This document shows, piece by piece, positions 1 to 64,000 of a stretch of DNA of 64,000 nt (position 1 is its first letter; the number at the start of each line of letters is the position of its first letter). The stretch is from positions 1 through 64,000 of the forward strand of contig JAUIAP010000001.1 of assembly GCA_030425205.1 (NCBI GenBank). The letters run 5' to 3'. The notes beneath the pieces are model-generated. The model did not search any database. It was not told the origin of the DNA and was given only the letters and a program-made list of their open reading frames with translations. This stretch comes from Anaerolineae bacterium. Lineage in GTDB: Bacteria > Chloroflexota > Anaerolineae > Promineifilales > Promineifilaceae. Position numbers and translations under genes: made by a program.

Positions 1-858
1 GCAATTGATCGGGCGACCAGCATCAAAACGGTCGGGCTCTGCCACAGCGTCCCACACACGGCGCACGATCTCGCAGACGATATGGGGATTCCGCGCGATG
101 AACTTAACTATCTCGTTGCAGGGATCAATCATGTCGCATTTTTCCTCAAGTTGGAACATGAGGGGAAAAACATGTATCCAAAGTTGCGTGAGACGATGGC
201 GGCGTTTGAAAAAAGCGGTGTTTGGCCAAAGCGCGGTCGCATGACCGACCACGTGCGCTATGAAATGTTTAAGCGTCTCGGCTATTTTGTGACTGAATCG
301 AGTGAGCACTTTAGCGAATATTCACCATGGTTTATCAAGCACGATCAGCCTCAATTGTTAGAGCAGTTCGATATTCCGCTGGATGAATACATTCTGCGTT
401 GTGAAGCGCAAATCATGCAGTGGGAATACTTGCGCCGTGAGTTGGAGGATGAGGGCAAACCTATTACGGTTGAGCCAAGCGTCGAATTTGGCGCCGATAT
501 CATCCATGCCATTGAGACAGGACAGCCGCGCCGTGTCTATGGCAATGTGCCAAACAATGGCATCATTGACAACTTGCCCGCTGGCGTTCCGGTCGAGGTG
601 CCGTGTCTGGTGGACAAGAATGGCGTGCAACCCGTAAAAATTGGCGTGATTCCACCCCAGTTGGCGGCGATGATGCAGACAAATATCAACGTGCAGGCAT
701 TGACGGTTGAAGCGGCATTAACCGGCAAGCGCGAGCATATTTATCATGCCGCGATGTTGGACCCACACACATCGGCCGAACTCAACCTCGACCAAATTTG
801 GTCTCTCGTCGATGATCTGATCGAGGCGCATGGGGAGTGGCTACCTGAGTATCATTAA
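1..858 (+). CDS. Glycoside hydrolase family 4 (alpha-galactosidase/6-phospho-glycosidase type), 3' part
   Basis: The frame is open from base 1, so the 5' end lies outside the window; 285 codons remain. GH4 enzymes cleave glycosides by an NAD+-dependent oxidation-elimination mechanism using a divalent metal, usually Mn2+. The visible GLCHS segment (Cys at codon 14 of the fragment) and the GINHVAF segment (Asn-His at codons 43-44) match the conserved Cys and His metal ligands of the family. The rest shows the usual GH4 C-terminal half (WEYLRRELED, then GNVPNNGIIDNLP and VEVPCLVD). The VPNNG..NLP.....VPC pattern favours the MelA-like alpha-galactosidase or alpha-glucosidase branch, but the substrate cannot be told from this half. 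No transporter or other sugar gene follows. A terminator follows at 941-971. Confidence 0.9.
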   Translation, partial: AIDRATSIKTVGLCHSVPHTAHDLADDMGIPRDELNYLVAGINHVAFFLKLEHEGKNMYPKLRETMAAFEKSGVWPKRGRMTDHVRYEMFKRLGYFVTESSEHFSEYSPWFIKHDQPQLLEQFDIPLDEYILRCEAQIMQWEYLRRELEDEGKPITVEPSVEFGADIIHAIETGQPRRVYGNVPNNGIIDNLPAGVPVEVPCLVDKNGVQPVKIGVIPPQLAAMMQTNINVQALTVEAALTGKREHIYHAAMLDPHTSAELNLDQIWSLVDDLIEAHGEWLPEYH

Positions 859-912
859 ACAGGAAGCTGACTGTAACTTGCATTAAATACTGGGCGTATC
901 TTTCGTTTTTAA

Positions 913-971
913 GTGACACGCACTTTGTCACACGAATAATAACCGCGCTTCTTACGGAAACGCGGTTTTTT
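913..971 (+). terminator. Intrinsic terminator after the GH4 gene
   Basis: A small hairpin (GTGACA 913-918 with TGTCAC 926-931) precedes a stronger one: AACCGCG at 941-947 pairs with CGCGGTT at 961-967 and runs into six T at 966-971. It separates the GH4 gene from the helicase, whose -10-like box begins only 15 bases later. Confidence 0.8.
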
Positions 972-985
972 GATCCACAAGCGGG

Positions 986-991
986 TATCCT
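986..991 (+). promoter_or_regulatory. Possible -10 box for a leaderless helicase mRNA
   Basis: TATCCT (4 of 6 matches to TATAAT) ends 6 bases before the ATG at 998, and no Shine-Dalgarno is present. The geometry matches better leaderless starts in this window, but the box itself is weak. Confidence 0.35.
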
Positions 992-997
992 CTCCCT

Positions 998-3121
998 ATG
1001 GAACTGTTATTTATCGAAAATTTGCCCTTTCGGATCGGAAAAGGTGCGGTGTATGGTTGGTTATTGGACGAAGGTCGATTGCGTAAGGAGGAAATCGGCC
1101 GAATTCGCATCAACCACGCGACCGCAACCGTTGAAATCGATCAAGACGATCTCTCCACACTCGTCCGCAGATTAGATGGCCTCACCATCGAATCGCGCCG
1201 CATTCACGTCTGGCGACAAGCAAAACGCGGCGAACAGCCCCATTTCGACAACCTACTACGCTGGCTCGATCTAGAGGCGGACGCGGAAAAGGAACAGCTC
1301 CAAAACCGCATCGAAGACGCGCACAATTTGAGCAGTCTCGTCATCCGTGAGGAATCGATTGGTTTAGGAGGGCGCATCGTGTTGCGCTTGGGACTGCGCA
1401 ACGAGCAGGCGCGACTGCCATGGACGCGGCTAAACGTCGGGTCACCCGTCATCATGACAGGTGAAAATGGCGCATGGCGTGGCGTTGTGGCACGGCGTAG
1501 CAGCTTGGCGATCGATGTCGCATTCTCACAGTCACCAGAGGTCGATGGCACGGTGCGGCTCGACTTGGCGCAGGATGAAATTTCACGGCGGCGCATGGCA
1601 CAGGCAATTGGGCGGGTCGCAGCGGCAAAAGGCAATCGGCTAGCGCAGTTGCGGGATATTCTCTTGGGGCTGGAGTCACCACAATTTACCCGCGATGGCG
1701 CGCATTCTGCAATCAAGGGCATTAGTTCGTTGAATCGGGTCCAGCAGGAGGCTGTGGCGTTGGCACTTTCGGCCGATGACGTCGCCCTCATCCACGGCCC
1801 GCCGGGAACGGGAAAGACATCGACGCTCGTCGAACTAATCATCGCCGCCGTTGCGCGGGGCGAGCGCGTGCTGGCCTGTGCGCCGAGCAATTTAGCGGTC
1901 GATAACCTTGTCGAGCGGTTGGCTGCCACGACGCTCAACATCGTGCGCGTGGGCGACCCGATTCGCGTTTTGCCCGCGGTGCAAGATCGCACGCTCGATG
2001 CGCTCGTCGAACAACACGCTGACTATCGGGTGGCAAAAAAGTTGCGCCGCGAGGCACAGGCATTGCAGCGCGATGCGGATCGCTGGAAGCGGGCGCGACC
2101 CGCCAAGGGCGAAAAGGCAGCGAAACGGGCGGAGGCTGGCGATATGTTTGCGGAGGCGCGCGAGTTGGAGCAGAGTGCGGTCGAGCGTGTGCTGAATGCG
2201 GCACAGGTGACGCTGGCGACCTTGACGGGGATCGACAGCACGACGTTTGGGCAGCGACAATATGATTTGTGCGTGATCGATGAGGCGGGGCAAAGCACGG
2301 AGGCGGCGACTTGGATTCCGATTGTGCGGTCAAAGAAAGTCGTTTTAGCGGGGGATCATCAGCAGTTGCCGCCAACCATCCTCTCACAACAGGCGCGGGA
2401 CGAAGGGTTTGGACGCAGCTTGCTAGAGCAGTTGATGGATCGGGATGGGGAGAGGATTGCACGACAGTTGATCGTGCAGTATCGAATGCATGACGAAATT
2501 ATGGCGTTTAGTTCAGGGGAGTTTTACAGTGGGACGCTGGAATCGGCCGATTCCGTCAAGTCCCATCTCCTAGCCGACCTCCCCAATGTTCAACCCACGC
2601 CGCTCACCACATCCCCCCTCACCTTCATCGACACGGCTGGGGCCAGCTATGATGAAGAGCAGACTGAATCCTTTAGTCGCCGCAATCCGCAAGAGGCAGA
2701 ACTCGTCTTGCAACAGGTTTCCCAGCTTTTGGAGGCGGGCGTTTTGGCAAGCCAGATCGCGCTTATCACTCCCTATTCGGCGCAAGTTGATCTATTGCGT
2801 GAACGATTGGCTGGTGGGGAAAACGGAAGCACGGACGCCCGCCTGCGTGAGAATGACCAATTAGAAGTAGAGGTCGGCTCAGTCGATGGCATGCAGGGGC
2901 GTGAACAGGAAGCGGTGGTTATTTCACTGGTGCGATCGAATTATGAAGGTGAGATCGGATTTTTGAGCGAGGTACGCCGTATGAATGTGGCATTTACACG
3001 GGCGCGGCGTAAGCTGATAGTGGTGGGGGATAGTGCAACAGTGACGGCCGATCCGTTTTTTGCACGGTTTGTGGCCTATTGCGAGGCCATAGGAGCCTAT
3101 CAGTCAGTTTGGGAATTGTAA
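998..3121 (+). CDS. SF1B (Upf1/IGHMBP2-like) DNA/RNA helicase
   Basis: This is a 707-residue superfamily 1 helicase of the IGHMBP2/TIGR00376-like type, predicted to unwind nucleic acid with ATP. Motifs are in order: Walker A GPPGTGKT at residues 267-274; Walker B DEAG at 428-431 (DEAGQS); motif III GDHQQLPP; the YRMH motif IV; VDGMQGRE motif V; and FTRARRKL motif VI. The first 230 residues form the less conserved beta-barrel region usual before the helicase core. A charged insertion of about 60 residues (rich in K, R and A, about 340-400) sits between motifs Ia and II, as in the stalk of this family. It is monocistronic between terminators. The start has no Shine-Dalgarno; see the box at 986-991. 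Whether it acts on DNA or RNA cannot be decided. Confidence 0.92.
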   Translation: MELLFIENLPFRIGKGAVYGWLLDEGRLRKEEIGRIRINHATATVEIDQDDLSTLVRRLDGLTIESRRIHVWRQAKRGEQPHFDNLLRWLDLEADAEKEQLQNRIEDAHNLSSLVIREESIGLGGRIVLRLGLRNEQARLPWTRLNVGSPVIMTGENGAWRGVVARRSSLAIDVAFSQSPEVDGTVRLDLAQDEISRRRMAQAIGRVAAAKGNRLAQLRDILLGLESPQFTRDGAHSAIKGISSLNRVQQEAVALALSADDVALIHGPPGTGKTSTLVELIIAAVARGERVLACAPSNLAVDNLVERLAATTLNIVRVGDPIRVLPAVQDRTLDALVEQHADYRVAKKLRREAQALQRDADRWKRARPAKGEKAAKRAEAGDMFAEARELEQSAVERVLNAAQVTLATLTGIDSTTFGQRQYDLCVIDEAGQSTEAATWIPIVRSKKVVLAGDHQQLPPTILSQQARDEGFGRSLLEQLMDRDGERIARQLIVQYRMHDEIMAFSSGEFYSGTLESADSVKSHLLADLPNVQPTPLTTSPLTFIDTAGASYDEEQTESFSRRNPQEAELVLQQVSQLLEAGVLASQIALITPYSAQVDLLRERLAGGENGSTDARLRENDQLEVEVGSVDGMQGREQEAVVISLVRSNYEGEIGFLSEVRRMNVAFTRARRKLIVVGDSATVTADPFFARFVAYCEAIGAYQSVWEL

Positions 3122-3155
3122 AAAAGCGATTCCACTTTCAAAAAATGGAATCGCT
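3121..3155 (-). terminator. Intrinsic terminator for the GEVED surface protein gene
   Basis: AGCGATTCCA at 3125-3134 pairs with TGGAATCGCT at 3146-3155. Read on the minus strand the stem is followed by a run of T (complement of the A run at 3119-3125), so it fits the end of the leftward gene. On the plus strand the T run is poor. Confidence 0.7.
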
Positions 3156-3162
3156 AATTCAT

Positions 3163-3207
3163 TCGTTTATCTCGCCTAAGATACTCGGAAAGGGGCGAGA
3201 CAAACGA
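3163..3207. repeat. 14-bp imperfect inverted repeat between convergent genes
   Basis: TCGTTTATCTCGCC at 3163-3176 pairs with GGCGAGACAAACGA at 3194-3207 with a single mismatch and a 17-base loop. It lies between the stop of the leftward gene (3266) and its terminator, so it may be a 3' stabilising hairpin. Confidence 0.6.
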
Positions 3208-3265
3208 TATTGACAGCGCGTCAACTGTAAATATTAAGCCGTTTGCCTAGCCGCTAAGTTTGTTT

Positions 3266-6652: not shown

Positions 6653-6854
6653 AGTGTTCTCCTGAATTGCTGGGACGGGATTGCACGATTTGGTCGGGCA
6701 GTTCCGCACTATTACGGTTAAGAAAGTCGTTTAGTCGTGCGAAGTCGGTAAAGGTGTACCGTTTTCCAGAGTAGGCGTCCTGTACAATGATACGCAACCG
6801 CTGCAAGTCGGTCTGATACCAAATTCGCACAAGATAAGCAGTATAGTCGGCCAT
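6633..6854 (-). CDS. 73-residue conserved-type small protein of unknown function
   Basis: The ATG at 6854 has TTGGAG six bases upstream, and the stop lies 20 bases inside the next gene, so the two are translationally coupled. The sequence (YLVRIWYQ, then LRIIVQDAYSGKRYTFTDFARLNDFL) follows a pattern I associate with small Chloroflexota proteins: a Tyr-Leu-x-Arg-(L/I)-Trp start, a predicted beta hairpin with a 'G(K/E)R' turn, and a final helix. The function is not known. The leader GGAGACAAG before the ATG is identical to that of the SPFH-HTH gene at 53923. Confidence 0.75.
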   Translation of the reverse strand: MADYTAYLVRIWYQTDLQRLRIIVQDAYSGKRYTFTDFARLNDFLNRNSAELPDQIVQSRPSNSGEHYETPFD

Positions 6855-6925
6855 CTTGTCTCCAATTTTTCTGAATCGTCAATCCCACTATCAGTGTAAG
6901 AAAAAAACGCTCCGAAAACGCTTAT

Positions 6926-6956
6926 TTGACCGATTCGGCCGATTTTTCGTTACAAT
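6926..6956 (+). promoter_or_regulatory. Probable sigma-70 type promoter of the BTAD/NB-ARC regulator
   Basis: TTGACC at 6926-6931 and TACAAT at 6951-6956 are separated by 19 bases, slightly long. One copy of the TCGGCCGA palindrome lies within the spacer at about 6934. The leader to the ATG at 7035 would be about 70 bases. Confidence 0.5.
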
Positions 6957-7034
6957 GTTACCCATGCGGACGACCATGCGGATCGACGCCACGTCGTCGG
7001 GAATGCATCGAGATGGGGATATTTATTAGCCATT

Positions 7035-18614: not shown

Positions 18615-18667
18615 GGTGCGTGGTGCGTAGTGCGTGTTTAGTGACGCACCACGCACCACGCACCACG
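18615..18667. repeat. CGCACCA hairpin repeat, copy A
   Basis: GGTGCG-TGGTGCG-type units at 18615-18636 face ACGCACCACGCACCACG-type units ending at 18667, forming a long GC-rich hairpin 32 bases after the stop of the PA14 gene. Related copies lie at 33861-33953 and 62244-62329. Confidence 0.8.
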
Positions 18668-21590: not shown

Positions 21591-21692
21591 GTCACAGGCG
21601 TTAGTGAACAACTGTCTGTATTGAAATAAGAGACGGAACCAGATCAAGCTATTTGGCTTGATTACCGTCCAGTATTGGTAAGAGCAAACAAA

Positions 21693-23951
21693 ATGAAGAA
21701 AGTTACATTCCCCCTCGTATTCGCGTTCTCGCTGTTATTGGTTTTAACCTTTTCAGTGGGGGCATTTCCCGGCATGAATTACAGTGGCGAGGCACAAGCC
21801 AACAACGTCACGGCAACACTCAATGTACTATCAATTCCCATCCTTGGCGGCGGCGTGTCTGCTGACGTCAAGGTTGGAGAAGCGCAGAGTCATGGCGCAG
21901 GAACACTCGCTGATCTCATGACGACATCAAGTGAAAGTATTGCCGCAAGCGTAAACGGCAGCGTACTTGGCATCCCTGTCAACCTGCCAATCTCTTCCCT
22001 AAGTAGCATACAAAGTTATCTCACACCAAGCCCCGATAATCCCGACCTCGCATCGAATTCATTGACCGATGGACTTGATGGAACGCTGCTGTCCTTGGGC
22101 GTATTACATAATAGCACGAGCGCCCTACTGAATGACGCGGACATGCTCCCGTCACTTGTCAATCCGACAAACAGTCTCAGCGAGGGCATGAGTGGTGTGG
22201 CAGGGATTGGAATCGGTCTGGACATTCCAATCTTAGGCCGATTATCAATCATCGACGCGGGTGTTGTCTCCGCGACGAGTAAGGTACAAACAATTGATGC
22301 AAGCACGGTCACAACGCAAGGGTATGATGCCGTTAGTTGTGAATCGCAAAGCATTATTGCGGGGTTAGATTTGTTGGACGGGTTGGTCGTAGTCGACGCG
22401 ATTACGACGACGACCACTGCCAACGTCAACGGGCAAGTCGGCACTGTGACGGGCTCGGTTCAAATTGCAGGTCTAGAAGTTGCTGGTGAAGTACGCGATG
22501 ACCTCGTGCTAGAAATTGGTTCGCTACCCCCGCTTGACATCAATTTGGCTGGAGGAAACATTGTGCTCTCGCTCGCCCCTGTGCTGGAAGGATCGGCCGA
22601 TAGGGGACTCGCAACAGCAAGTGCAACCGCCTTGCGGCTCGAAGTCGTTGCCAACGCATTGGGTCTTGGCACGGGAACGGTGATCGAAATTGGTAGCAGC
22701 GAAGTGACCTGCGCCGCCGCTCGTGGCAATTGGAATCCAAAAGACGATACAGATAACGATGGCGTGATTGATGAACAGGATCTCGACGATGATAACGACG
22801 GAATCCCCGACCTGCTTGAAGGTGATGCTGCGCTTGACACAGATAGTGACGGCATTCCAGACAGCCGCGACCTCGACAGCGACAATGATGGGGCAAACGA
22901 CGTGATTGAAGCGGGTCACAATGACCTGGATTTGAATGGCGACGGACAGATTGATGGTGCAGTCGGAACCAATGGGCTAAGCAATTTGGTTGAAGTTGCC
23001 GACGATTCTACCGGTGACTTGATATACACGCTCCGTGACTCTGATAGCGATGGCATTATCGACGTGCGCGACCTCGATAGTGACAATGACAGCATCCCCG
23101 ATCTGATTGAGAATGGTTTTGCGGCACATGATTCAAATGGTGACGCGATGGTCGATGGCGCAGATGACGATTTTGATGGGATTCTCGCGCCTGTCGATGG
23201 TCTCGCCTCATATGGCGATAGCGATGTCGCGCCACAGGCAGATGCCGATGGCGACGGAATTCCCAATAGCCGCGACCTCGATAGCGATAACGATGGCACG
23301 CTCGACCTAGTCGAGAATGGACAAGGCGCACTCGACACCGATAACGATGGGATGGTTAACGGTGATGACTTCGACCAAGATGGTGTGCTTGGTGCGGCTG
23401 ACACAATGGGTCTCGAATATGGCACAGGTTCAACGATCGTCGATACAGACGAAGATTCTGTTCCAAATGCGTATGATCTCGACAGCGACAACGACGGCGC
23501 GACCGATGTAATGGAGGCGGGGCTACTCGGTTCTGACCCTGATGGCAGTGGCACGCTCGAAGGAGTCGATACCGATCAGGATGGTGTCCCAGATGATTGG
23601 GACTCGATCCCCGCAGAATTTGGCGCGGGCAGCAATGAACTGCCAGATGCGGATGGCGACGACCTCCCTGACATGGTTGAGTTGGACAGCGATGACGACG
23701 GAACATTTGATAATGCTGTCTATGGGGATGGGACAGATAACAACAATGATGGTATGGCAGATGGCGAAGATCCAGATCAAGATGGTATTCCAGAATCGGC
23801 CGATACTGCACCAACAGAATTTGGTCTCAATGGCACACCAACCGCCATTTCACTAGCCAGCCACCGCGTCCAATTAATGAGCAGCAGCATTCTATTGCTC
23901 GCCCTGTTCACTTTACTTGGCCTCACAGTAGCACTCAAGACGCGCGAGTAA
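21693..23951 (+). CDS. Secreted choice-of-anchor protein with thrombospondin type 3 repeat stalk (copy 1)
   Basis: 752 residues from the ATG at 21693. A signal peptide (MKKVTFPLVFAFSLLLVLTFSVGAF) leads to a choice-of-anchor-type beta domain at about 26-345 (AFPGMNYSGEAQANNVTATL to VTCAAARGNW). Then come about 370 residues of calcium-binding repeats of the type DxDxDGxxDxxDLDSDNDGxxD. The protein ends with a hydrophobic helix (SSSILLLALFTLLGLTVAL) and KTRE. The stalk should be rigid and Ca2+-dependent, holding the N-terminal domain away from the cell. A strong intrinsic terminator follows. The next gene is a paralogue. Confidence 0.85.
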   Translation: MKKVTFPLVFAFSLLLVLTFSVGAFPGMNYSGEAQANNVTATLNVLSIPILGGGVSADVKVGEAQSHGAGTLADLMTTSSESIAASVNGSVLGIPVNLPISSLSSIQSYLTPSPDNPDLASNSLTDGLDGTLLSLGVLHNSTSALLNDADMLPSLVNPTNSLSEGMSGVAGIGIGLDIPILGRLSIIDAGVVSATSKVQTIDASTVTTQGYDAVSCESQSIIAGLDLLDGLVVVDAITTTTTANVNGQVGTVTGSVQIAGLEVAGEVRDDLVLEIGSLPPLDINLAGGNIVLSLAPVLEGSADRGLATASATALRLEVVANALGLGTGTVIEIGSSEVTCAAARGNWNPKDDTDNDGVIDEQDLDDDNDGIPDLLEGDAALDTDSDGIPDSRDLDSDNDGANDVIEAGHNDLDLNGDGQIDGAVGTNGLSNLVEVADDSTGDLIYTLRDSDSDGIIDVRDLDSDNDSIPDLIENGFAAHDSNGDAMVDGADDDFDGILAPVDGLASYGDSDVAPQADADGDGIPNSRDLDSDNDGTLDLVENGQGALDTDNDGMVNGDDFDQDGVLGAADTMGLEYGTGSTIVDTDEDSVPNAYDLDSDNDGATDVMEAGLLGSDPDGSGTLEGVDTDQDGVPDDWDSIPAEFGAGSNELPDADGDDLPDMVELDSDDDGTFDNAVYGDGTDNNNDGMADGEDPDQDGIPESADTAPTEFGLNGTPTAISLASHRVQLMSSSILLLALFTLLGLTVALKTRE

Positions 23952-24290: not shown

Positions 24291-24405
24291 AATCAGAAAA
24301 TGGGTAAATAAATTTTCCAAATTTGACAGATAAGTAGATAGACAACACACGGTATCGTATAGTCTCAACTGTTATTAATAGTCGTATTTGGTAGGAGTTC
24401 AATCC

Positions 24406-26646
24406 ATGAAAAAATTACTATCCCCACTCGTATTCGCCCTTGCACTCATATTGGTGCTAACCCAAACAACTGCTGCATTTCCGGGCATGAGCTTTAGCGG
24501 CAATGCCCAAGTGACCAACATTAGAGGCGCTATTGGCGTGTTATCGTTGCCAATCATTGGTGGCGTGGATGCCAATGTTGTTGTTGGAACAACTGAAAGC
24601 CACGTAAACGGAACGCTCGTCGAAATGATCACGGCGAATGGTGAAAGCACGGGTGCGCTGGTTGTCGGCTCAGTGCTGGGGGAAGCTATAAATCTACCCA
24701 TCGCTGATGCGGCGAGCCGTCAAAGCTATCAAGACCCAAGCGCAAGTAATCCAGATACCGAAGCGTTTGCCCTGACCGACATTGACCAAGAAATTCTCAC
24801 ATTAGGGACGATCAACAACGAGAGCATTGCTGGCTTGTATGACAGTTCGCGCTCACCGAATATTGTCAACCCGACCAGCAGTCGCGCAAATAACAACAGC
24901 CAGACGGCTGACATCAACATTGGACTACCACTGCTCGCTGACATTTTACATGTCGACACAGCACTCGCGACAACAACTGTCGAGACAACAGATGCAAGCG
25001 CAGTGACAACGCAGGGATATGATGCAATTAGTTGCGAGGCAACGAGCACAATCGCTGGTCTGAACGTCTTGGGCTTAATTTCGGCCGATGCTATCACGAC
25101 AACGACATCCGCAACGGTTAACGGTCAAACAGGAGAATCGGCCGCAACGGTCAGCATCCTCAATTTAGTTGTTGATGATACCGTCAATGAGCCAATTGAA
25201 ATTGACTTGGGGACAACCCCTCCCGCTAATTTCAACCTGCTCGGTGGCGACATCATCCTCTCAATTGCGCCTGTGATGGAAGGTTCGGCCGATTCTGAAC
25301 ATGCGACAGCCAGTGCGGTTGCCCTGCGCGTTGAGGTTCTTGCAAACGTACTTGGAATCGCCGCTGGCACGGTTATTGACATTGGCGCAAGCAATGTAGA
25401 TTGTGCCGCACTACGTGGCAACTGGAATCCCGGCGATGATACAGATGGTGACGGCGTGATCGATGCAATCGACTTAGATGACGACAACGATGGTCTGCCT
25501 GACACACTCGAAGGGGATGCCGCACTCGACACCGACGGCGACCGCATTCCAGACAGCCGCGACCTCGACAGCGATAACGACGGGGCAAATGACGTTTGGG
25601 AAGCGGGACATCCCGACCTCGACTTGAACGGTGACGGACAAATCGACGGCCCAACTGGTGAGAATGGGTTGAGCGATTTAGTCGAAGAACCCGGCGACTC
25701 TGCGACCCTCATCTACACACCACTTGATACGGATAACGACGGCGTGATCGATGTGCGCGACCTCGACAGCGACAACGATAGCATCGCCGACGTGATTGAG
25801 AACGGATTGGTCGCACTCGATGCCAATAATGATGCGATGGTCGATGGCGACGATGACGATTTCGATGGCATCATTGCACCAGCCGACGCATTTGCCACCT
25901 ACGGCGACGCAAATGAAGCGCAGCCTGCTGATACCGACGGCGACAACATCCCGAACAGCCGTGACCTCGACAGCGACAACGATGGACTGCTTGACATCGT
26001 GGAAAACGGTCAAGCTGCACTCGACACAGACGATGACGGCATGATCAACGGGACAGAGCTCGAAGGTGATGGGATTCTCGGCGACGCAGACACGCGACCA
26101 TACGAGTACGGCAGCGGTGTCAGCGCGCTTGATAGCGACAACGATTCAATATTCAACGCCTACGACCTCGATAGCGATAACGACGGGGCAACCGACCTCG
26201 CTGAAGGTGGCCTGTCGGACTTAGACCCAACCGGTACAGGACATCTGCAAGGTGTTGATGCCGACTTGGACGGCGTGATTGACAGCCGTGATACGCAACC
26301 GACGCTCTATGGCTGTGGCTTATTCGTCGTACTGCCCGACGCAGACGGCGATGATGTGCCAGACTATATTGAATTGGACAGCGATGATGATGGCACGTTT
26401 GACATTGACGAGCATGGCACGGGAACGGACGCCGACAATGACGGGATGGCAGATGGCCCAGACGACGAGCAGGACGGTATTCCAGAATCGGCCGATAATG
26501 CCCCAGACCGCTTCGGTCTCAACGGCATCGCGCCCACGGCCGTTGCGCTCAGCGGTAGCAACACGCAGTCAATCGGCAACATCGCCCTACTGCTGACGTC
26601 GACGCTCCTGCTGACTTTAGCAACCGCATTTGTGAAACAAGACTAG
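24406..26646 (+). CDS. Secreted choice-of-anchor protein with thrombospondin type 3 repeat stalk (copy 2)
   Basis: 746 residues. The ATG at 24406 has TAGGAG 8 bases upstream; the longer frame from 24388 is less likely. It has the same plan as the gene before it: signal peptide, choice-of-anchor domain (AFPGMSFSGNAQVTN to VDCAALRGNW), the calcium-repeat stalk with the same landmark blocks (LEGDAALDTD.D.IPDSRDLDSDNDG; ENG..ALDTD.DGM), and a C-terminal hydrophobic helix with KQD at the end. The copies align along their whole length, but the N-terminal domain has diverged more than the stalk, which may reflect different ligands. A bidirectional terminator separates it from the leftward ATPase gene. 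Confidence 0.85.
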   Translation: MKKLLSPLVFALALILVLTQTTAAFPGMSFSGNAQVTNIRGAIGVLSLPIIGGVDANVVVGTTESHVNGTLVEMITANGESTGALVVGSVLGEAINLPIADAASRQSYQDPSASNPDTEAFALTDIDQEILTLGTINNESIAGLYDSSRSPNIVNPTSSRANNNSQTADINIGLPLLADILHVDTALATTTVETTDASAVTTQGYDAISCEATSTIAGLNVLGLISADAITTTTSATVNGQTGESAATVSILNLVVDDTVNEPIEIDLGTTPPANFNLLGGDIILSIAPVMEGSADSEHATASAVALRVEVLANVLGIAAGTVIDIGASNVDCAALRGNWNPGDDTDGDGVIDAIDLDDDNDGLPDTLEGDAALDTDGDRIPDSRDLDSDNDGANDVWEAGHPDLDLNGDGQIDGPTGENGLSDLVEEPGDSATLIYTPLDTDNDGVIDVRDLDSDNDSIADVIENGLVALDANNDAMVDGDDDDFDGIIAPADAFATYGDANEAQPADTDGDNIPNSRDLDSDNDGLLDIVENGQAALDTDDDGMINGTELEGDGILGDADTRPYEYGSGVSALDSDNDSIFNAYDLDSDNDGATDLAEGGLSDLDPTGTGHLQGVDADLDGVIDSRDTQPTLYGCGLFVVLPDADGDDVPDYIELDSDDDGTFDIDEHGTGTDADNDGMADGPDDEQDGIPESADNAPDRFGLNGIAPTAVALSGSNTQSIGNIALLLTSTLLLTLATAFVKQD

Positions 26647-33860: not shown

Positions 33861-33953
33861 AGGTTTTCGCCACAGCGCGTGGTGCGTATTCAGTTCACGC
33901 ACCACGCACCACGCACCACGTTTTACACTGTAGCGAAAACCTCGTGACACGAA
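33861..33953. repeat. CGCACCA hairpin repeat, copy B (longest form)
   Basis: An outer stem AGGTTTTCGC (33861-33870) with GCGAAAACCT (33933-33942) encloses the CGCACCA-type inner hairpin (right arm ACGCACCACGCACCACG). The tail CCTCGTGACACGAA also occurs in copy C. It begins 48 bases after the lipoprotein stop. Confidence 0.85.
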
Positions 33954-34041: not shown

Positions 34042-37000
34042 ATGTGCCAAAATTGCCAAGATAAAGAGTTCGTCCATCTGCACGTCCATAGCGAATATAG
34101 TCTGCTCGATGGACTGAGCCGCATTGATCATCTCGCCAAACGCGCCATTGAGATGCAGCAGCCCGCGCTCGCCCTCACCGATCATGGGGCGATGTATGGA
34201 ACAATCGAGTTCTATCGGGCGTGCAAGAGTGCGGGAGTCAAGCCCATCATTGGGATGGAAGGGTACGTTGCCTCGCGTTCGATGTATGACCGCGATTCAC
34301 AATTGGATCGCAAGCGGTTTCACATTTTGTTATTGGCACAAAACAAAACGGGCTACCTCAATCTGCTCAAAACGGCCTCCGAAGCCCAGCTCAATGGCTA
34401 CTACTACAAGCCGCGCATCGACCATGATTTCATGGCAAAACATAGTGATGGGCTGATCTCTACCACAGGCTGCATGGCAGGGGAAATTCCACAGGCGTTG
34501 CTAAATGGACAGACAAAACGCGCCGATGAGTTAATGGGCAAGTATCTCGATATTTACGGCAAAGATAACTTTTTCATCGAGTTACAAGAGCATGACATTC
34601 CCGATTTGACCAAGATCAATCAGCAGTTGGTGGCGATGGCTCCGCGCTTTGGGTTAGAAAATAGCTTCTTGGTAACAAATGATGTGCATTACACGACGGC
34701 CGAAGAAGCACAGCCGCATGAGGTGTTGCTCTGCATCCAAACGGGCAGCACGACCGAAGCCCCCAAGCTGACCCTCTCCAACTACGAATACTACCTGAAA
34801 GATTACAATCAGATGTGGGGAACGTTCAAGGGGTATGACGAGCGTGTATTGCACAATGGGTTTGTCAACAGCTTGAAGATTGCCGAGAAGTGCGAGGTGA
34901 ACCTCGACACGGAAGGTTACCATCTGCCTGAATTCGAGGTCCCAGAAGGATTCAATCCCCACACCTATTTACGGCATCTATGCGAGGAAGGGTTAAAGTG
35001 GCGTTACGGCGAGCGAGCGAGCGATGAAATCTTTCAGAACCGCTTAAACCATGAGTTGAATATCATTCATGGCATGGGGTTTGATACCTACTTTTTAATC
35101 GTTTGGGATTTATGCGAATTTGCCAAACGTGGACGGGCATGGTGGGACAAACATGGGGCAACTTTCTATCCCGACAAAACTTATGAACAGTGGGCGCGTG
35201 ACGATATATGGTGGAATACACGTGGCTCTGCGGCGGGATCAATTGTGGCCTACTCATTGGGGATCACTGGCATCGATCCGATCGGCAACGATCTCATTTT
35301 TGAGCGGTTTTTGAATCCCGGTCGCATCTCAATGCCCGATATTGATCTCGATTATCCCGATGATCGACGGCACGAGATGGTTGCGTACACAATGGAGCGG
35401 TATGGGGCAGATAAGGTCGCGCAAATCATTACGTTTGGGACGATGAAGGCGCGGGCAGCAGTGCGCGATGTCGGCCGGGCGATGGACATTACGCTCGAAG
35501 AGGTAGACCGTATTGCCAAGATGATTCCTGCCATTCCCGGCAAGAAAGTTCAGATCGACGATCTCTTTGTCGAGGGGCATGAATTTCACAACAAAGAGTT
35601 TGTGACACTTTACAACAATAATGCGCAAGCTCGACAGCTCATCGACACGGCACGACAATTAGAAGGGGTCAGCCGCCATGCATCGAGCCATGCCGCAGGC
35701 GTGATCATTTCGGACAGACCGCTGGTAGAGTATGTGCCGCTCAATCGGCCGACTTCTGGCGATGCGGGACTCGGCGGCGTCGATCGTGTCACCCAATGGC
35801 CGATGGAGATCGTCGAGTCGATTGGATTGCTCAAGGTCGATTTTCTCGGACTCAGCACGTTGACCGTCATGCGACAGGCCGCTCGCATTATCGAAGCACG
35901 GCACGGTATCAAATACGGGATGGACGATATTCCCTACGACATTGGACAGATCGGGCCTGATCCAACAAAAGATCCGCAAAAGCTGTTTGACCTACTCGCG
36001 GCTGGGGCGACGCCGGGCATTTTCCAACTTGAAGGCAATGGAATGCGCCGACTGATGATGGAGATGCGACCGACCCGCTACGATCATCTCGTCGCTGCGG
36101 TGGCACTCTATCGGCCGGGTCCGATGGATAACATTCCAGAGTATATTGGTCGAATGCATGGCGACAAACAGGTACGCTACCATACCCCCGTCTTGCAAAA
36201 TGCGCTCGAAACGACCTATGGGATTATCGTCTATCAAGAACAAATTATTCGCATCGCCACCGATTTAGCAGGATATGAACCGGGTGAGGCGGATATGATC
36301 CGTAAGGCGGTTGCTAAAAAGAAAGAAAAGCTGATGGAGGAACATCGCATCAAGTTTACGGCTGGCGCGATGAAAAATGGCTACTCACAGGATGTGTGTG
36401 ATGCAATTTGGGGCGACATTCAGTTTTTTGCACGCTATGGGTTTCCAAAAGGACATGCCGCATCCTATGGGAAAATCACCGGACAAACCGCATTCCTCAA
36501 AGCGCACTATCCCGTCGATTATATGTGCGCCCTGCTCTCGGTTGAGCGCGAAAAATCGGACAAGGTCACAAAATATATGGCGGAGGCGCGCCGGATGGGA
36601 ATCAAGGTCGTGTCGCCAGAAATCAACAAGGCACGTGTCAGTTTCAACATCGAACAGCAAGATGGAAAAGATATTATTCGCTTTGGATTTGGGGCGATCA
36701 AGAACGCGGGTGAAGGTGCGCTGCGCTTGATTACAGATGAGCGCGACGCGAACGGCCCGTTTGCTGATATTTATGATCTGTGTGAGCGGGTTGATCTGCG
36801 GCGGGTCGGCGGGCGTGCGCTGGAGGCGATGGTCAAGGTGGGTGTCTTTGACTGCTGGGGAACGCGACCGCAGTTTTTGGACGGCTATCGGCGCATGATG
36901 GCGTATAGTGGCAAACACATTGATGAACAAGCATCGGCCCAGATGAGCTTATTGGGGCTGTTTTCATCACCAACGGCGGTCGAAAAACCAATGTTGCTGC

Positions 37001-38046
37001 GCGACGAGTTTGAGATTGAGCCGATCAAAAAGCGCAAGCTGCTCGATTGGGAGAAAGAGTTGATCGGCGTGTATCTGTCGGAGCATCCGCTGACAGAGAA
37101 GTTGGAGGCCATGCAGGGGTTTATTAGTCACGATTCGGCCGAACTTGAGCCCACCGATAACGGCAAAGAGGTGCGGCTAGGCGGCATGATCCAAAGCATT
37201 CGCCCCTACTCGACAAAGAAAGGCGACCCAATGGCGTTCGGCGTGTTGGAAGATTTGACGGGAAAACTCGATCTCGTCTTTTTCCCGCGCACATGGGAGC
37301 AGGTCAAAGAGATCGCGCAACCCAACCAGATCGTCATGCTCAAGGGCAAGGTGAACGTCAAAAATGACTCGCTCTCTATCTTGGTCGATAGTGTCACAAA
37401 GTCACTTGAAATTGCATCGGCCGCCGTTGAAGTAGAAGAAGAACAGATCGACCTGCAACCCCGTTTGGAGGATGTCGCCATTGCCGAGCAGGAAGACGAG
37501 ACTTGGGCTCCCGCCGCTTGGGATGATCTGGGAGAGGACGGAGAAGAGGACGAGGTGAGCAATCAACAAATTGTTTCGTCTAACGAGCCGACGGCTGTGC
37601 GGGAGGTGGCGGTTGTCTATTCCAAGCAGACCGCTGCGCCAACTTTTGAGCAAGACATTGACGATGTACCACCAGAACCCGAGTTTAACGATGATTGGGG
37701 ATTCGAGACGTATGACGCACCGCCAGATGGCAATGTATTGCAACCAAGATCAGCGGAGAATGGAGGGTCCAGCAAGAATAGCGGGCAGGTTGCAAAAAAT
37801 GGTGGCGGACGCGAGCCTCGCAAGCTGTTGGTTGAAGTTGCACCGACAGGAGATTGGCGGGCGACGTTGATGCGTACCGTGCGGTTGACAGAGGAGTATG
37901 AAGGGCGCGATCAGCTCGTCGTGCGCTTGCGCGATTACGATTACGAAATCGAGTTTCCAAAACGACGCACAGATTATTGTGATGAGTTGGTGGGGGCGTT
38001 GCGGCGCGTGTCGGGAGTCGAGCGTGTTGTTTCCCAGACGTTGTAG
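34042..38046 (+). CDS. dnaE: DNA polymerase III alpha subunit
   Basis: 1334 residues, longer than the usual 1160 or so. This is the replicative polymerase. The PHP domain starts FVHLHVHSEYSLLDG, with ALTDHGAMYG after it. The palm has NTRGSAAGSIVAYSLGIT and the catalytic acids in MPDIDLDYPDDRR, followed by the fingers (LYRPGPMDNIPEYIGR; YGIIVYQEQ). An OB domain is visible at about 1030-1120 (VRLGGMIQSIRPYSTKKGDPMAFGVLED). Two oddities: an insertion of about 30 residues (WWDKHGATFYPDKTYEQWARDDIWWN) just before RGSAAGS, and an acidic, low-complexity linker of about 120 residues after the OB domain, before the final domain. No editing exonuclease domain is present. Confidence 0.95.
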   Translation: MCQNCQDKEFVHLHVHSEYSLLDGLSRIDHLAKRAIEMQQPALALTDHGAMYGTIEFYRACKSAGVKPIIGMEGYVASRSMYDRDSQLDRKRFHILLLAQNKTGYLNLLKTASEAQLNGYYYKPRIDHDFMAKHSDGLISTTGCMAGEIPQALLNGQTKRADELMGKYLDIYGKDNFFIELQEHDIPDLTKINQQLVAMAPRFGLENSFLVTNDVHYTTAEEAQPHEVLLCIQTGSTTEAPKLTLSNYEYYLKDYNQMWGTFKGYDERVLHNGFVNSLKIAEKCEVNLDTEGYHLPEFEVPEGFNPHTYLRHLCEEGLKWRYGERASDEIFQNRLNHELNIIHGMGFDTYFLIVWDLCEFAKRGRAWWDKHGATFYPDKTYEQWARDDIWWNTRGSAAGSIVAYSLGITGIDPIGNDLIFERFLNPGRISMPDIDLDYPDDRRHEMVAYTMERYGADKVAQIITFGTMKARAAVRDVGRAMDITLEEVDRIAKMIPAIPGKKVQIDDLFVEGHEFHNKEFVTLYNNNAQARQLIDTARQLEGVSRHASSHAAGVIISDRPLVEYVPLNRPTSGDAGLGGVDRVTQWPMEIVESIGLLKVDFLGLSTLTVMRQAARIIEARHGIKYGMDDIPYDIGQIGPDPTKDPQKLFDLLAAGATPGIFQLEGNGMRRLMMEMRPTRYDHLVAAVALYRPGPMDNIPEYIGRMHGDKQVRYHTPVLQNALETTYGIIVYQEQIIRIATDLAGYEPGEADMIRKAVAKKKEKLMEEHRIKFTAGAMKNGYSQDVCDAIWGDIQFFARYGFPKGHAASYGKITGQTAFLKAHYPVDYMCALLSVEREKSDKVTKYMAEARRMGIKVVSPEINKARVSFNIEQQDGKDIIRFGFGAIKNAGEGALRLITDERDANGPFADIYDLCERVDLRRVGGRALEAMVKVGVFDCWGTRPQFLDGYRRMMAYSGKHIDEQASAQMSLLGLFSSPTAVEKPMLLRDEFEIEPIKKRKLLDWEKELIGVYLSEHPLTEKLEAMQGFISHDSAELEPTDNGKEVRLGGMIQSIRPYSTKKGDPMAFGVLEDLTGKLDLVFFPRTWEQVKEIAQPNQIVMLKGKVNVKNDSLSILVDSVTKSLEIASAAVEVEEEQIDLQPRLEDVAIAEQEDETWAPAAWDDLGEDGEEDEVSNQQIVSSNEPTAVREVAVVYSKQTAAPTFEQDIDDVPPEPEFNDDWGFETYDAPPDGNVLQPRSAENGGSSKNSGQVAKNGGGREPRKLLVEVAPTGDWRATLMRTVRLTEEYEGRDQLVVRLRDYDYEIEFPKRRTDYCDELVGALRRVSGVERVVSQTL

Positions 38047-49741: not shown

Positions 49742-49748
49742 CGGTTAT

Positions 49749-55086: not shown

Positions 55087-55091
55087 TGTCA

Positions 55092-56352: not shown

Positions 56353-56359
56353 TCAGCCT

Positions 56360-56569: not shown

Positions 56570-56586
56570 GCCCCATCTATAATAAA

Positions 56587-58035: not shown

Positions 58036-58055
58036 GCAACCGCACGCACCAAACC

Positions 58056-59276: not shown

Positions 59277-59316
59277 GACCAGAATTAAAGTGCACCGAGG
59301 CCACAGCGATCAGTCA

Positions 59317-59357
59317 TCGCCTGCGCGGATTTGTTGCCTCATCCGCGCAATCGGCGA
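59317..59357. terminator. GC-rich hairpin between convergent genes
   Basis: TCGCC-TGCGCGGAT (59317-59330) pairs with ATCCGCGCA (59341-59349) and, after a 3-base bulge, GGCGA (59353-59357). It lacks a T run, so it may be a factor-dependent or simply stabilising 3' structure of ycaQ. Confidence 0.45.
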
Positions 59358-59418
59358 CAACGCTGTTTGTTAAACGTCGTTTCACTCAATTGGCGCACAT
59401 TGACGCCGTCATCGAAAC

Positions 59419-60483: not shown

Positions 60484-60623
60484 CGGGATCATTCTCCTTT
60501 GTTGCATAGGTTTTTGAAGCGTTGAACGTCTTGTCAGTAAAACAAGACAACTTTATTTTAGCGAGGTTGCATCCTATTTGCATGACGGTGACTGTATATT
60601 TCTGGTTACAGCTTTGAGAAACC

Positions 60624-60661
60624 AAACGGGGTCTGCTAGCGCAAACTAGCAGACCCCGTTT
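60624..60661. terminator. Hairpin terminator between the two SH3b paralogues
   Basis: AAACGGGGTCTGCTAG (60624-60639), loop CGCAAA, CTAGCAGACCCCGTTT (60646-60661): a perfect 16-bp stem. It is 21 bases after the stop of the gene at 60682 read leftward, with a modest T-rich tail. Confidence 0.85.
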
Positions 60662-60681
60662 AAAAGCGTGCGCTTATACGA

Positions 60682-62070
60682 TTAAAGTAGGAGTGAGGCG
60701 CCAGCCGCGATATTCAAGAAATCTTCGCGGGCAGCTTCAGCACCGGCAACACCAATTGCACGATTGAGGTCGGTCAGATCACCATCGTTAAGACAAGTCA
60801 ACGTGACATCCTTTGTTTTGTCTAAAACAGCCGTAAGTGCCGTTTCATAGTTGTTTACCATCGCCTGCGCTTCGGCCGGCACGTCTGTGAACTCGGGTGA
60901 AAGTGCGAGCAATGTGTACGCATTGATGATGTCCTCACAGTTTGGATTGGTTGGTGCAAGGGCGTTGGCGATTAGATCGGCCGATCCCGCTGAAATAAAC
61001 TGCACCAAGAAAAACGCTTCTGCATCAAACTCGACAACGGCAGGGTTGACGAGGCTTGGATCATCGGCCAAATCAACAAGATCATCAATCACACGTGGGT
61101 CACGTGTTTCGCCTTCCCATTCAATATAATAGGTTGTGACAGCTTTGGCAATCGCTTGTTCCAACGAATCTGTTTCGTCGTCCATATCACCATCATCCAT
61201 GTCGCCATCGTCCATGTCGCCGTCATCCATGTCGCCGTCGTCCATCTCATCATCAGTTGGGGGAGCGGCATCAAAATCAAGCGCATTAAGCGGGACATAC
61301 CCATCACCCAATTCAGACTCGATTTGCGCCCATGTCGCGGTCATCATGACCACATCAACGGGGGTCGCTGGAGGCAACGCGCTACCTGTCGCTGTTGTTG
61401 GATCGGGTTCACGATAGATGTTTGTCCAACGTACGGTGATAGCATCACCCTCCATCGGGGTATCCATATCCGCATCGTCCATTGGCGGCATCTCTTCGTC
61501 AACTTCTTCAGCCACATCACCAATCAACGCTTCAGCAATTGCCAATGCACGTTCACCAGCGTTCAACGACGTGGCGATTGAGGTATAAGCAAGGCCATGA
61601 TCGAAGTTATTGACGCGGCCATCATTTTGGCAGCCAAAGTACGCGGGGCGTGTGCGGTCAAGCGCCGTCACAAAGGAGAAAAAGTAAAGATTGTCCGCGA
61701 CAACATAGTTGACGGGAATCGTTTCAGGATCAAAAAAGACACTTTCCTCTTTAATCGTCTCATACGTCGTCGTAAAAACCATACAGTCGGCTGCGCTACC
61801 CGCTTTCGCGCCATCGAGCGCGTCGCGCATAATGCGAAGATGTGTCACCAGCTTGCCTGTGCGGTCGAGAAGTTCCAAATCATTAAATGGGACAATTGGA
61901 AACGTCCCAAGCTCTTCATCTGGGTTCGATTCATAGACAATCGTGATGGTTTCAGTTTCGCCACCATCATCATTTTCTTGTGCGGAAACCACATTAATCC
62001 CCGCAAACATAAACAGTGCCAACAGTAACATCAGCAAGGTCGAACGTTGCATCAAGATCGGTTTTTTCAT
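60682..62070 (-). CDS. Secreted protein with an SH3b domain, GDMDD repeats and a conserved C-terminal helical domain (copy 1)
   Basis: 462 residues; AGGAG 9 bases before the ATG. Signal peptide ILMQRSTLLMLLLALFMFAGINVVSAQ. An N-terminal domain of about 170 residues, absent from copy 2, contains two Cys (ADCMVFTTTYE; AYFGCQNDG). One SH3b unit follows (TVRWTNIYREPDPTTATGSALPP), then a very acidic linker with about four exact copies of a 15-base unit encoding GDMDD (61190-61245). The C-terminal helical domain aligns with copy 2 (E(G/W)..TR.PRVI.D..DL; LIAN/AIQKAL.P..P.C; ALSPEF..VP..A). The acidic repeats may bind Ca2+ or act as a spacer. Confidence 0.8.
   Translation of the reverse strand: MKKPILMQRSTLLMLLLALFMFAGINVVSAQENDDGGETETITIVYESNPDEELGTFPIVPFNDLELLDRTGKLVTHLRIMRDALDGAKAGSAADCMVFTTTYETIKEESVFFDPETIPVNYVVADNLYFFSFVTALDRTRPAYFGCQNDGRVNNFDHGLAYTSIATSLNAGERALAIAEALIGDVAEEVDEEMPPMDDADMDTPMEGDAITVRWTNIYREPDPTTATGSALPPATPVDVVMMTATWAQIESELGDGYVPLNALDFDAAPPTDDEMDDGDMDDGDMDDGDMDDGDMDDETDSLEQAIAKAVTTYYIEWEGETRDPRVIDDLVDLADDPSLVNPAVVEFDAEAFFLVQFISAGSADLIANALAPTNPNCEDIINAYTLLALSPEFTDVPAEAQAMVNNYETALTAVLDKTKDVTLTCLNDGDLTDLNRAIGVAGAEAAREDFLNIAAGASLLL
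61186..61250. repeat. 15-bp coding tandem repeat (GDMDD units)
   Basis: About four copies of a unit that reads GTCCATGTCGCCATC or GTCGCC variants on the plus strand encode the GDMDD repeat of the SH3b gene copy 1. Copy number could vary between strains. Confidence 0.85.
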
Positions 62071-62202
62071 TCGTAGAAACTCCTTTATTTGTTGAATGAG
62101 AGTCGCAAAAATCTGGCCTCATTCCCACAAACATCATTTCTATCGTAGTGGGGCTACATAAACAGAAGCTGATGGACGCGGCACATAAAGAGTTACATTT
62201 TT

Positions 62203-62218
62203 GTTAGATTGTCGTAAG
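62203..62218. promoter_or_regulatory. Single GTTAG/GTAAG pair resembling the surface-gene operator
   Basis: GTTAG at 62203 and GTAAG at 62214 (11-base period) lie between the purN end and the SH3b gene copy 1 start, in plus orientation. The similarity to 21571-21590 and 24271-24290 is weaker than between those two. Confidence 0.25.
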
Positions 62219-62243
62219 ATTAGGGCGAAAGATGCCATTCATG

Positions 62244-62329
62244 ATGCGTGGTGCGTGGTGCGTGTCCAGTTTACGCACCACGCACCACGCACCACGACTC
62301 ATCTGGTAGCAAAAACCTCGTGACACGAA
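62244..62329. repeat. CGCACCA hairpin repeat, copy C
   Basis: TGCGTGGTGCGTGGTGCG (from 62244) faces ACGCACCACGCACCACG ending at 62296; the tail CCTCGTGACACGAA ends at 62329. It starts 29 bases after the stop of purN (leftward). Same family as copies at 18615 and 33861. Confidence 0.85.
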
Positions 62330-62358
62330 TTGGAAATACTAAAAGCGCAACACTCCCC

Positions 62359-62937
62359 TCAAGATTCAAGCGCGATTTGCACCGCGAGCAAGATGATTCT
62401 GTGTTCGGTACGGTGCATTCTGGCTGCGAAGGATTCGAGGGTATCATTCGGCCGAAAATCAACTCGCGCCGTCACCAATGGCTCACCCGCATCAACTTCG
62501 GGAATAACATCATGCACCATGCAGCCACTATGGGCGATCTCGCCTGCTTCGTAAGCGGCAAAGGCACGTTCGATGGCGTGAATGCCCGCAAATTGGTTTG
62601 GGAGTGCGGGGTGGAGGTTGATGATCTTTTGGGGAAATCGGCCGATAAACTCCGCACTCAAAATGTGCATCCAGCCTGCTAGCACGATCAAGTCTGGCTC
62701 GTATTGCGCAATCAAATCGGCCAGTGCGACATCATACGCAACGCGATTGGGATATGTCTTGCGACGATGAACGTGGGTTTGAATGCCCGCATTGGCGGCA
62801 CGGTTTAATCCATAGGCGTTTGCTCGATTACTGATGACGCTGACAATTTCGGCCGAAATTTCCCCGCTCTCAACCGCGTCAATCAATACCTGCAAATTCG
62901 ATCCACCACCTGAAATCAATACCACAATTTTTGACAT
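62359..62937 (-). CDS. purN: Phosphoribosylglycinamide formyltransferase
   Basis: 192 residues from the ATG at 62937; a longer frame to 63021 has no support. It carries out the third step of purine synthesis with 10-formyl-THF. GGGSNLQ at the N-terminus binds phosphate; the catalytic Asn and His are in INLHPALP, the Asp in VHDVIPEVDAG. The INLHPALPNQFAG segment is one residue shorter than the usual NLHPSLLP loop. No other pur gene is visible. TGGAAA before the ATG is a weak ribosome-binding site. Confidence 0.92.
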   Translation of the reverse strand: MSKIVVLISGGGSNLQVLIDAVESGEISAEIVSVISNRANAYGLNRAANAGIQTHVHRRKTYPNRVAYDVALADLIAQYEPDLIVLAGWMHILSAEFIGRFPQKIINLHPALPNQFAGIHAIERAFAAYEAGEIAHSGCMVHDVIPEVDAGEPLVTARVDFRPNDTLESFAARMHRTEHRIILLAVQIALES

Positions 62938-63088
62938 AAGTTTCCATTTGTTATGGTTTAGCTGGTCAGCATTTCGGCTAAGTGTAAAACAGCCTACGAG
63001 CATGTGCCAATGATCTAACATCGGCCGATTTAACGCGCATCACACCAAGAGCGCGAGCCAAATCATAGTCAGTCGCACGAATGCGTTT

Positions 63089-63094
63089 TATACT
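63089..63094 (+). promoter_or_regulatory. -10 box upstream of trpB2
   Basis: TATACT 32 bases before the ATG at 63127; an AGGAG site lies between them. Confidence 0.45.
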
Positions 63095-63126
63095 CCTACA
63101 AACAAGTAAATCTAGGAGAACTCAAA

Positions 63127-64000
63127 ATGGAATCAACTCGCAAGATCACGCTGTCGGAAAACGAAATTCCGACCCATTGGTACAACATCGTGGCGGACAT
63201 GCCCAATAAACCATTACCGCCGCTCAATCCTGGCACCCACGAGCCAATTGGCCCCGAAGCCCTTGCGCCTCTGTTCCCGATGGAACTGATTATGCAAGAG
63301 GTTTCGCAGGAACGCTGGGTCGAAATCCCCGATGAAGTGCGCGAGGTTTATAAAATTTGGCGGCCGACGCCGATGTTCCGCGCCACTGGCTTGGAAAAAG
63401 CACTCGGTACCTCTGCGAAAATCTACTACAAATATGAAGGGGTTAGCCCGTCAGGGTCACACAAGCCAAACACCGCCGTTCCGCAAGCGTACTACAATAT
63501 GAAGGAAGGCGTGAAACGCATCACGACCGAGACTGGCGCGGGCCAATGGGGCAGCGCACTCAGTTTCGCCTGTCAGATGTTTGGCATCGAATGTGATGTC
63601 TACATGGTACGCATCAGCTTTGACCAAAAACCCTATCGCAAAATGATGATGCAGACTTGGGGCGCAAACGTCTACCCGTCGCCGAGCGAGCGCACCAACG
63701 CGGGTCGGCAAATCCTCGCACAAGACCCCGACACACCGGGCAGTCTTGGCATTGCGATTTCCGAGGCGGTTGAGATGGCCGCGATGCATGACGACACAAA
63801 ATACTCGCTCGGCAGCGTTCTCAACCATGTCTTAATGCACCAAACGATTATCGGGCAAGAGGCGATCAAGCAGCTTGAGAAGGCGGGGGCAGATATGCCC
63901 GATTATGTGTTTGCGCCGTTTGGCGGTGGCTCCAACTTTGCGGGGCTAGCGTTGCCGTTTATCCATAAAAATCTGACCGAGGGAACCAATATCCGCTGTA
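63127..64000 (+). CDS. trpB2: TrpB2-type tryptophan synthase beta-like enzyme, 5' part
   Basis: The frame runs from the ATG at 63127 (AGGAG 7 bases upstream) off the window end; 291 codons are seen. It is a PLP-dependent type II fold enzyme of the TrpB2 branch: [17 protein letters not shown], the PLP Lys in [10 protein letters not shown], then [17 protein letters not shown] and FGGGSNFAG (phosphate cradle). The N-terminal part ([39 protein letters not shown]) is the long extension specific to TrpB2. It makes tryptophan from indole and serine, or scavenges indole. No trpA is nearby. Confidence 0.93.

Follow-up and report, generated by a model that had tools for sequence, protein, structure and literature searches.

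The closest described systems to the element reported here are the highly iterated palindromes (HIPs) of cyanobacteria, namely HIP1 (GCGATCGC) and its alternates, such as GCSGC of Cyanothece PCC 7822, as set out in passages of Elhai 2015 (PMC4390886). HIP1 was first described in 1995 according to passages of PMC6604393, which also report that it is methylated and refer to Xu 2018 on selection. What HIP1 does is still argued over. DNA uptake sequences, both those of Neisseria (DUS) and the uptake signal sequences of Haemophilus (USS), occur at roughly one site per kb and share a core across lineage dialects; to our knowledge, none is palindromic. Here we describe TCGGCCGA, a palindromic octamer that recurs throughout a 64,000-base stretch of DNA (the window) and the genome to which it belongs (G000; other G-numbers denote relatives). 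We believe this to be a HIP-type element of the Promineifilaceae, a family of Chloroflexota. The family name is reached through G004, a member of the same family that an exact locus match equates with Promineifilum sp. isolate Gw_Prim_bin_199; NCBI places Promineifilum in Chloroflexota, Promineifilaceae.

An exact search found 81 copies of TCGGCCGA in the window, one per 790 bases, where the first-pass annotation had estimated about 80 by eye. A third-order Markov model expects 3.25, and the runner-up palindromic octamer has 4 copies, which bears out the earlier view that the excess goes beyond base composition and that related octamers do not reach this level. The neighbouring bases are mostly A or T, as had also been remarked: AA at 20 copies, TA at 20, TT at 19 and AT at 17, or W on both sides at 76 of 81. 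Across the genome (7,787,621 bases in 108 contigs), TCGGCCGA occurs 9,414 times (about 1,209 per Mb) and the reversed palindrome of the same composition 27 times. With the octamer masked out before third-order training, the 604 copies in 501,703 bases of G000 compare with 7.2 expected, an 84-fold excess far from the Markov expectation; the corresponding values are 44-fold in G008 and 74-fold for the sister octamer ACGGCCGT in 19 pooled ACGGCCGT genomes. The Markov models and the reversed control rule out chance or composition as the cause.

The octamer is also read in all frames. In a 321,703-base sample, 83% of which is covered by open reading frames (ORFs), 336 of 374 sites lie inside called ORFs and 38 outside, with 214 in phase 0 (SAE 121, SAD 93), 77 in phase 1 (IGR/FGR/VGR/LGR) and 45 in phase 2 (xRPx). 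The earlier conclusion that it is no protein motif therefore holds, and codon bias alone is excluded as well. Spacing follows no regular lattice (coefficient of variation 0.74 in the window and 0.89 over 357 intervals), and because the flanks are unconserved the octamer does not appear to be part of a longer repeat. Within the window, copies begin at 772, 1095, 1769, 2543, 4083, 4583, 6047, 6120, 6935, 7756, 7795, 7909, 8342, 8547, 8985, 9114, 10026, 10694, 10714, 11043, 11398, 11699, 12656, 13246, 14376, 14535, 15652, 17214, 17392, 18461, 19676, 21416, 22593, 23796, 25081, 25285, 26488, 26994, 27818, 27880, 28636, 29013, 29387, 30174, 30582, 31235, 32791, 33004, 33252, 33535, 35745, 37135, 38078, 39527, 40991, 42100, 42316, 42431, 44111, 45689, 46886, 46973, 47978, 48335, 48719, 51230, 52235, 53681, 54369, 54532, 56031, 56851, 57040, 58462, 58485, 59089, 60977, 62448, 62638, 62849 and 63021.

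Relatives carry dialects of the same word. Among the 58 relatives listed, TCGGCCGA reaches 7,668 copies in G008 (about 5.1 Mb) and 1,326 in G001, and at most 925 in the others. Of the 35 family genomes in which the core hexamer CGGCCG was counted, 31 hold more of it than of its reversed control (13,814 against 51 in G015 and 21,019 against 132 in G001, for instance), and four hold less: G010, G012, G021 and G028. In sampled sequence, which for several genomes came to less than 10 kb, the dominant octamer is ACGGCCGT in 19 genomes, TCGGCCGA in G000 and G008, GCGGCCGC in G015 and TGCCGGCA in G012. G001, G006 and G026, and weakly G004 and G024, are of a hexamer type, with CGGCCG and little outer preference; G073, G074 and G075 receive that label from their genus and low ACGGCCGT counts only. 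Some relatives carry no excess octamer or hexamer. By whole-genome count, the ACGGCCGT type comprises 28 of 52 family genomes, with 2,887 (G031) to 15,176 (G061) copies, and hexamer-type G026 has 2,982. Outside the family, ACGGCCGT reaches at most 430 copies in 235 genomes (from an even draw of 249 class genomes, 14 of them in the family). Two further observations concern the words themselves: TGCCGGCA of G012 is ACGGCCGT reversed without complementing (3,665 copies against 14), and GCCGGC is nearly absent, as if avoided, with 51 copies in the 8.0 Mb of G015 and 132 in the 4.1 Mb of G001.

The dialects can be set on a tree of dnaE, the gene for DNA polymerase III alpha, which lies on the forward strand of the window at 34042..38046 (homology among relatives, name from sequence) and has octamers of its own at 35745 and 37135. 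In this tree (quick method, midpoint root, 30 genomes), G000, G008 and hexamer-type G001 stand together, apart from the other 27; G010, G028, G020 and G033, which lack an excess octamer, form one clade; and hexamer-type G006 and G026 are placed among ACGGCCGT genomes.

The same gene provides evidence that sites are kept. One dnaE column bears ACGGCCGT in 11 of 30 genomes. Comparing 17 ACGGCCGT genomes in pairs less than 82% identical, at positions with matching amino acids, we find the octamer retained in 218 of 239 ordered-pair contexts, and the codon background predicts 49.5 (21%); the pairs are not independent, so this ratio is an effect size and carries no p-value. Four-fold sites flanking the shared octamers are about as variable as elsewhere (0.43-0.55 identical against a background of 0.44). 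The closely related pair G002/G023 has 37 of 45 sites in common (two of the other eight are alignment gaps), and octamer bases diverge by 3.4%, compared with 8.64% in the flanks and 8.59% at distant bases. Overall, the designation as a HIP-type element, made at first from the window's own letters, agrees with a dominant palindromic octamer that is genome-wide at about 1.2 per kb, read in all frames, retained by position in dnaE and replaced by sister octamers in related genomes.

A second property is a GC-skew halo. Each strand is G-rich 5' and C-rich 3' of the exact octamer, symmetrically, and the effect fades over about 75 bp: G000 has a skew of 0.40 at 9 bp, falling to 0.20 at 21, 0.10 at 51 and 0.06 at 75, with 0.01-0.07 beyond. 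Around the 81 window sites (1..64000), bases 3-45 give +0.262 on the left and -0.166 on the right, against +0.021 for the whole window. Random centres in G000 have a standard deviation of 0.0065, and ten control palindromes in that genome show no consistent skew pattern, the rare ones being noisy. In 36 contig samples from G000 and G008, the sign relative to the sample's own skew is as expected at 71 of 72 sides. Third codon positions carry most of the shift (left G 0.43 and C 0.17, right G 0.18 and C 0.44, background G 0.28 and C 0.30). The halo is equal across all three reading phases, a further point against codon bias or a protein motif. Being two-sided as well, and present in both gene directions, it follows neither transcription nor replication, and skew linked to either is ruled out.

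The halo depends on the exact octamer and follows the dialect. It is 0.208 at the 604 TCGGCCGA sites of G000 against 0.000 at other NCGGCCGN, 0.106 against 0.007 in G008, and 0.140 at ACGGCCGT against 0.019 in the pooled ACGGCCGT genomes. Core one-off sites in these three sets range from -0.10 to +0.09 (about 16-45 strand-sites each), which is noise level with a slightly positive lean. The halo is positive in 19 of 19 ACGGCCGT genomes (0.061 to 0.217), and it appears at GCGGCCGC in G015 (0.147 +/- 0.043, 23 sites) and at TGCCGGCA in G012 (0.129 +/- 0.032, 22 sites). In dnaE it is 0.21 at 77 ACGGCCGT carriers, and 0.018 and -0.002 at the matching columns of non-carriers.

We tentatively propose that TCGGCCGA is the long-lived recognition site of a DNA-processing system, of repair or recombination, a reading we find quite possible though short of probable. 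The site would be recognized genome-wide, with the CGGCCG core present in all dialects but one and outer bases specific to the lineage. The system would read the full octamer and work outward on both strands, perhaps by a nick or break at the octamer followed by repair synthesis or recombination, and either selection for this role or active restoration would keep the sites in place. On this proposal the process acts only now and then during the long existence of conserved sites and treats the strands differently, such that the strand running 5' to 3' towards the site would gain G and lose C, with a slight preference for T over A. Since the sites persist across genera, even a slight strand bias could accumulate as a symmetric halo. 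C:C mismatches largely escape MutS, which could bias C and G alone. A site-started, strand-asymmetric process is the simplest reading of a halo that needs the exact octamer, follows the dialect, is two-sided and independent of direction, and lies in unconserved sequence; that the sites are acted on, that a nick or break and a repair or recombination step are involved, and that a single enzyme is responsible are what we infer from it.

Several results weigh against this proposal. Dense CGGCCG in hexamer-type genomes comes with weak skew (0.052 in G001, 0.023 in G006 and 0.048 in G026), and the 11 TCGGCCGA sites in dnaE alone have no halo (0.014). In the close pair G005/G025, 7 of 12 sites are common and the octamer is hardly less divergent (9.5%) than flanks (11.0%) or distant bases (11.4%), which gives little support for maintenance. 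Neither close pair shows raised divergence near sites, nor is the share of C/G changes raised near them relative to far bases (12% against 15% in G002/G023, 21% against 19% in G005/G025), so any processing bias must be slow; a local mutation hotspot is not supported by the same data. Weak selection on the octamer flanks may also be a cause of the halo. Finally, a responsible enzyme was not identified, the methyltransferase search having covered PF00145 and PF01555.

The alternative that fares best, though we consider it somewhat unlikely, is the model of Elhai, which supposes an orphan methyltransferase with CGGCCG or the octamer as its target; mismatch repair, directed by the mark, would then make and preserve sites as a by-product. 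It is favored by near-misses that are biased outward, 4.3-fold in G000, 2.9-fold in the pooled ACGGCCGT genomes and 1.3-fold in G008, the pattern that passages of Elhai 2015 give for HIP1. The outer-position ratio of 4.33 in G000 and 2.85 in the pool lies above all 48 and 42 comparison palindromes, respectively, and in G008 it is just 1.29, with 1 of 45 comparison palindromes higher. Depletion of inner near-misses, considered as a sign of conversion, is suggestive only in G008 (2/52 and 2/44 comparison palindromes as low). The enzymes fit less well. Cytosine-5 methyltransferases (PF00145) number four in G000, three in G001 and one in G008, with none common to all three and no match in G002, G006, G018 or G019; the G008 enzyme shares about 79% identity with one from G025, a genome without TCGGCCGA excess; and G006 has its CGGCCG excess without a match to PF00145 or PF01555. 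The first-pass annotation had named three possible causes, a methyltransferase site, biased repair or recombination, or a nucleoid protein site, without choosing between them. Of the enzymes found in PF00145 and PF01555, the two methyltransferase families searched, none appears to account for the octamer sites and none is common to all carriers, and the halo favors a process that acts outward from the site.

One candidate enzyme is M660, a DPPY methyltransferase of 650-700 residues with conserved cysteines (G000:C103:27468-29417) that is followed in G000 by NurA and then HerA genes (Pfam). NurA also adjoins it in G002, G007 and G008, and by eye a HerA-like gene comes next in G002 and G008; G018 and G019 have M660 without NurA. 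As a discriminator NurA itself fails, being present in 48 of 52 family genomes. M660 occurs in 40 of the 52, among them G015, 26 of 28 ACGGCCGT genomes and the two TCGGCCGA genomes, of which G008 has it divided between two frames. It was found in none of G001, G006, G026, G073, G074 and G075, and this distribution suits methylation. It was likewise not found in G010, G012, G021 and G033, nor in two ACGGCCGT genomes, G003 (78% complete) and G013 (95%), although two absences among 28 drafts could be missing contigs. Against a part in setting the dialect, M660 is present without the octamer in all eight genomes of the genus Promineifilum (g4), from which it follows that M660 is not sufficient for the octamer; G020 and G072 have it too, and G028 has a fragment. 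M660 is also common in other phyla, at loci with no excess of the octamer: 21 of 80 M660 loci pass a simple octamer flag, all 21 of them Chloroflexota-named, with loci too short to be judged among the rest. Its conservation across phyla (44-51% to G000) is unlike that of a dialect-setting specificity domain. M660 is thereby weakened as the dialect determinant, though it may be relevant to the octamer form. A solved-structure search with it returned six weak methyltransferase matches. A second methyltransferase cluster, with 18 members of about 330 residues in the fetched loci, was set aside, as it is not among the PF01555 matches of the ACGGCCGT genomes G018 and G019.

In our view the octamer is quite unlikely to be a site that selection keeps for the binding of a nucleoid or chromosome-organising protein whose preference shapes the flanks. 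The even genome-wide spread, the palindrome with A/T neighbours and the strong retention would all suit such a protein. The halo would not: composition shifts smoothly out to about 75 bp in flanks as variable as the dnaE background, the two sides are unpaired, and for selection to mould dozens of bases around each of 9,414 sites it would need to be effective despite being very weak. Pairing of the flanks beyond their marginals is absent (z -0.1 in G000, 1.4 in G008), and folding at the sites (z -0.44 and -0.40) is no stronger than at control palindromes (-0.41 and -0.56), which rules out hairpin or cruciform selection. Least of all do we expect a DNA uptake sequence that biased transformation has spread and that varies by dialect, as those of Neisseria and Pasteurellaceae do; the density, the lineage dialects with a shared core and a halo that may be compatible with exchange tracts ending at the site make it conceivable, yet the lack of known palindromic uptake sequences leaves it very unlikely.

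The window holds two other features of note. Short inverted arrays of ACGCACC units at 18619-18667, 33878-33920 and 62247-62296 look like intergenic repeat or hairpin elements, with 13 matches to ACGCACCACG against 0.27 expected. Adjoining long ORFs at 21675-23951 and 24388-26646 have closely similar openings and aspartate-rich repeats, apparently the result of tandem duplication.

Returning to the proposed recognition site, we asked how far the halo extends to cyanobacteria, using plasmids only; a plasmid search with a protein of the window listed no cyanobacterial record. On plasmids of Trichormus variabilis (550 kb), HIP1 has a weak halo of matching sign, 0.053 +/- 0.010 at 343 sites, where 500 random-centre draws gave at most 0.034. 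It is absent on 50 kb of a Synechocystis plasmid (-0.007 +/- 0.028, a small sample of 32 sites), and GCSGC on 50 kb of a plasmid from Gloeothece (formerly Cyanothece) PCC 7822 gave 0.002. With one positive species, we treat the cyanobacterial halo as a lead rather than proof. More broadly, HIP palindromes of unrelated phyla could all serve a single kind of machinery, as a genome-wide palindromic code of entry points for repair or recombination. The letters of this code would drift as dialects, and its use would leave the symmetric strand-bias halo on both sides; we regard this as unlikely, but if it were true the halo would be a diagnostic for active HIPs anywhere, including HIP1. A second, unrelated family with switching dialects, hexamer-only or empty lineages and a measurable footprint makes the HIP question a comparative one: the halo marks the active sequence in each genome, and lineage contrasts offer a way of finding the protein responsible.

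The HIP-type reading is already known for cyanobacteria, and we consider the GC-skew halo new: the literature searched, which left most subscription journals outside, held no prior report of a Chloroflexi HIP, of these octamers or of GC skew at HIP1. Elhai 2015 covers cyanobacteria, with no mention of Chloroflexi, Chloroflexus, Roseiflexus or CGGCCG in its main text, and the relevant passages of PMC6329791 and PMC12772301 list methylated motifs, none with CGGCCG for Chloroflexi. In the sense of Elhai 2015, as far as its passages define it, G000 has a palindrome far above expectation at a density within about 500-2500 per Mb, and the family shows single-base variants that favor the outermost positions (in G000 and the pooled ACGGCCGT genomes, more weakly in G008), alternate palindromes in relatives (ACGGCCGT, GCGGCCGC, TGCCGGCA and CGGCCG), and maintenance beyond the codon background in dnaE, if less so in G005/G025. 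Like HIP1 as described in those passages, TCGGCCGA is a palindromic octamer at about one per kb, read in all frames, with outer-biased near-misses, lineage replacement and evidence of maintenance. Unlike HIP1, it has a CGGCCG core, belongs to Chloroflexota, shows several octamer dialects inside one family and has no cognate methyltransferase identified in PF00145 or PF01555; the halo in Promineifilaceae (0.10-0.21) is also much stronger than that of HIP1. The resemblance to Neisseria DUS and Haemophilus USS lies in a density of about one site per kb and a shared core with lineage dialects, and the difference lies in the palindromic form of the octamers here. Finally, the G015 dialect GCGGCCGC equals the NotI recognition site; unlike 8-bp restriction-modification sites, the octamers are not avoided, and the genomes measured hold them at 44-84 fold enrichment.

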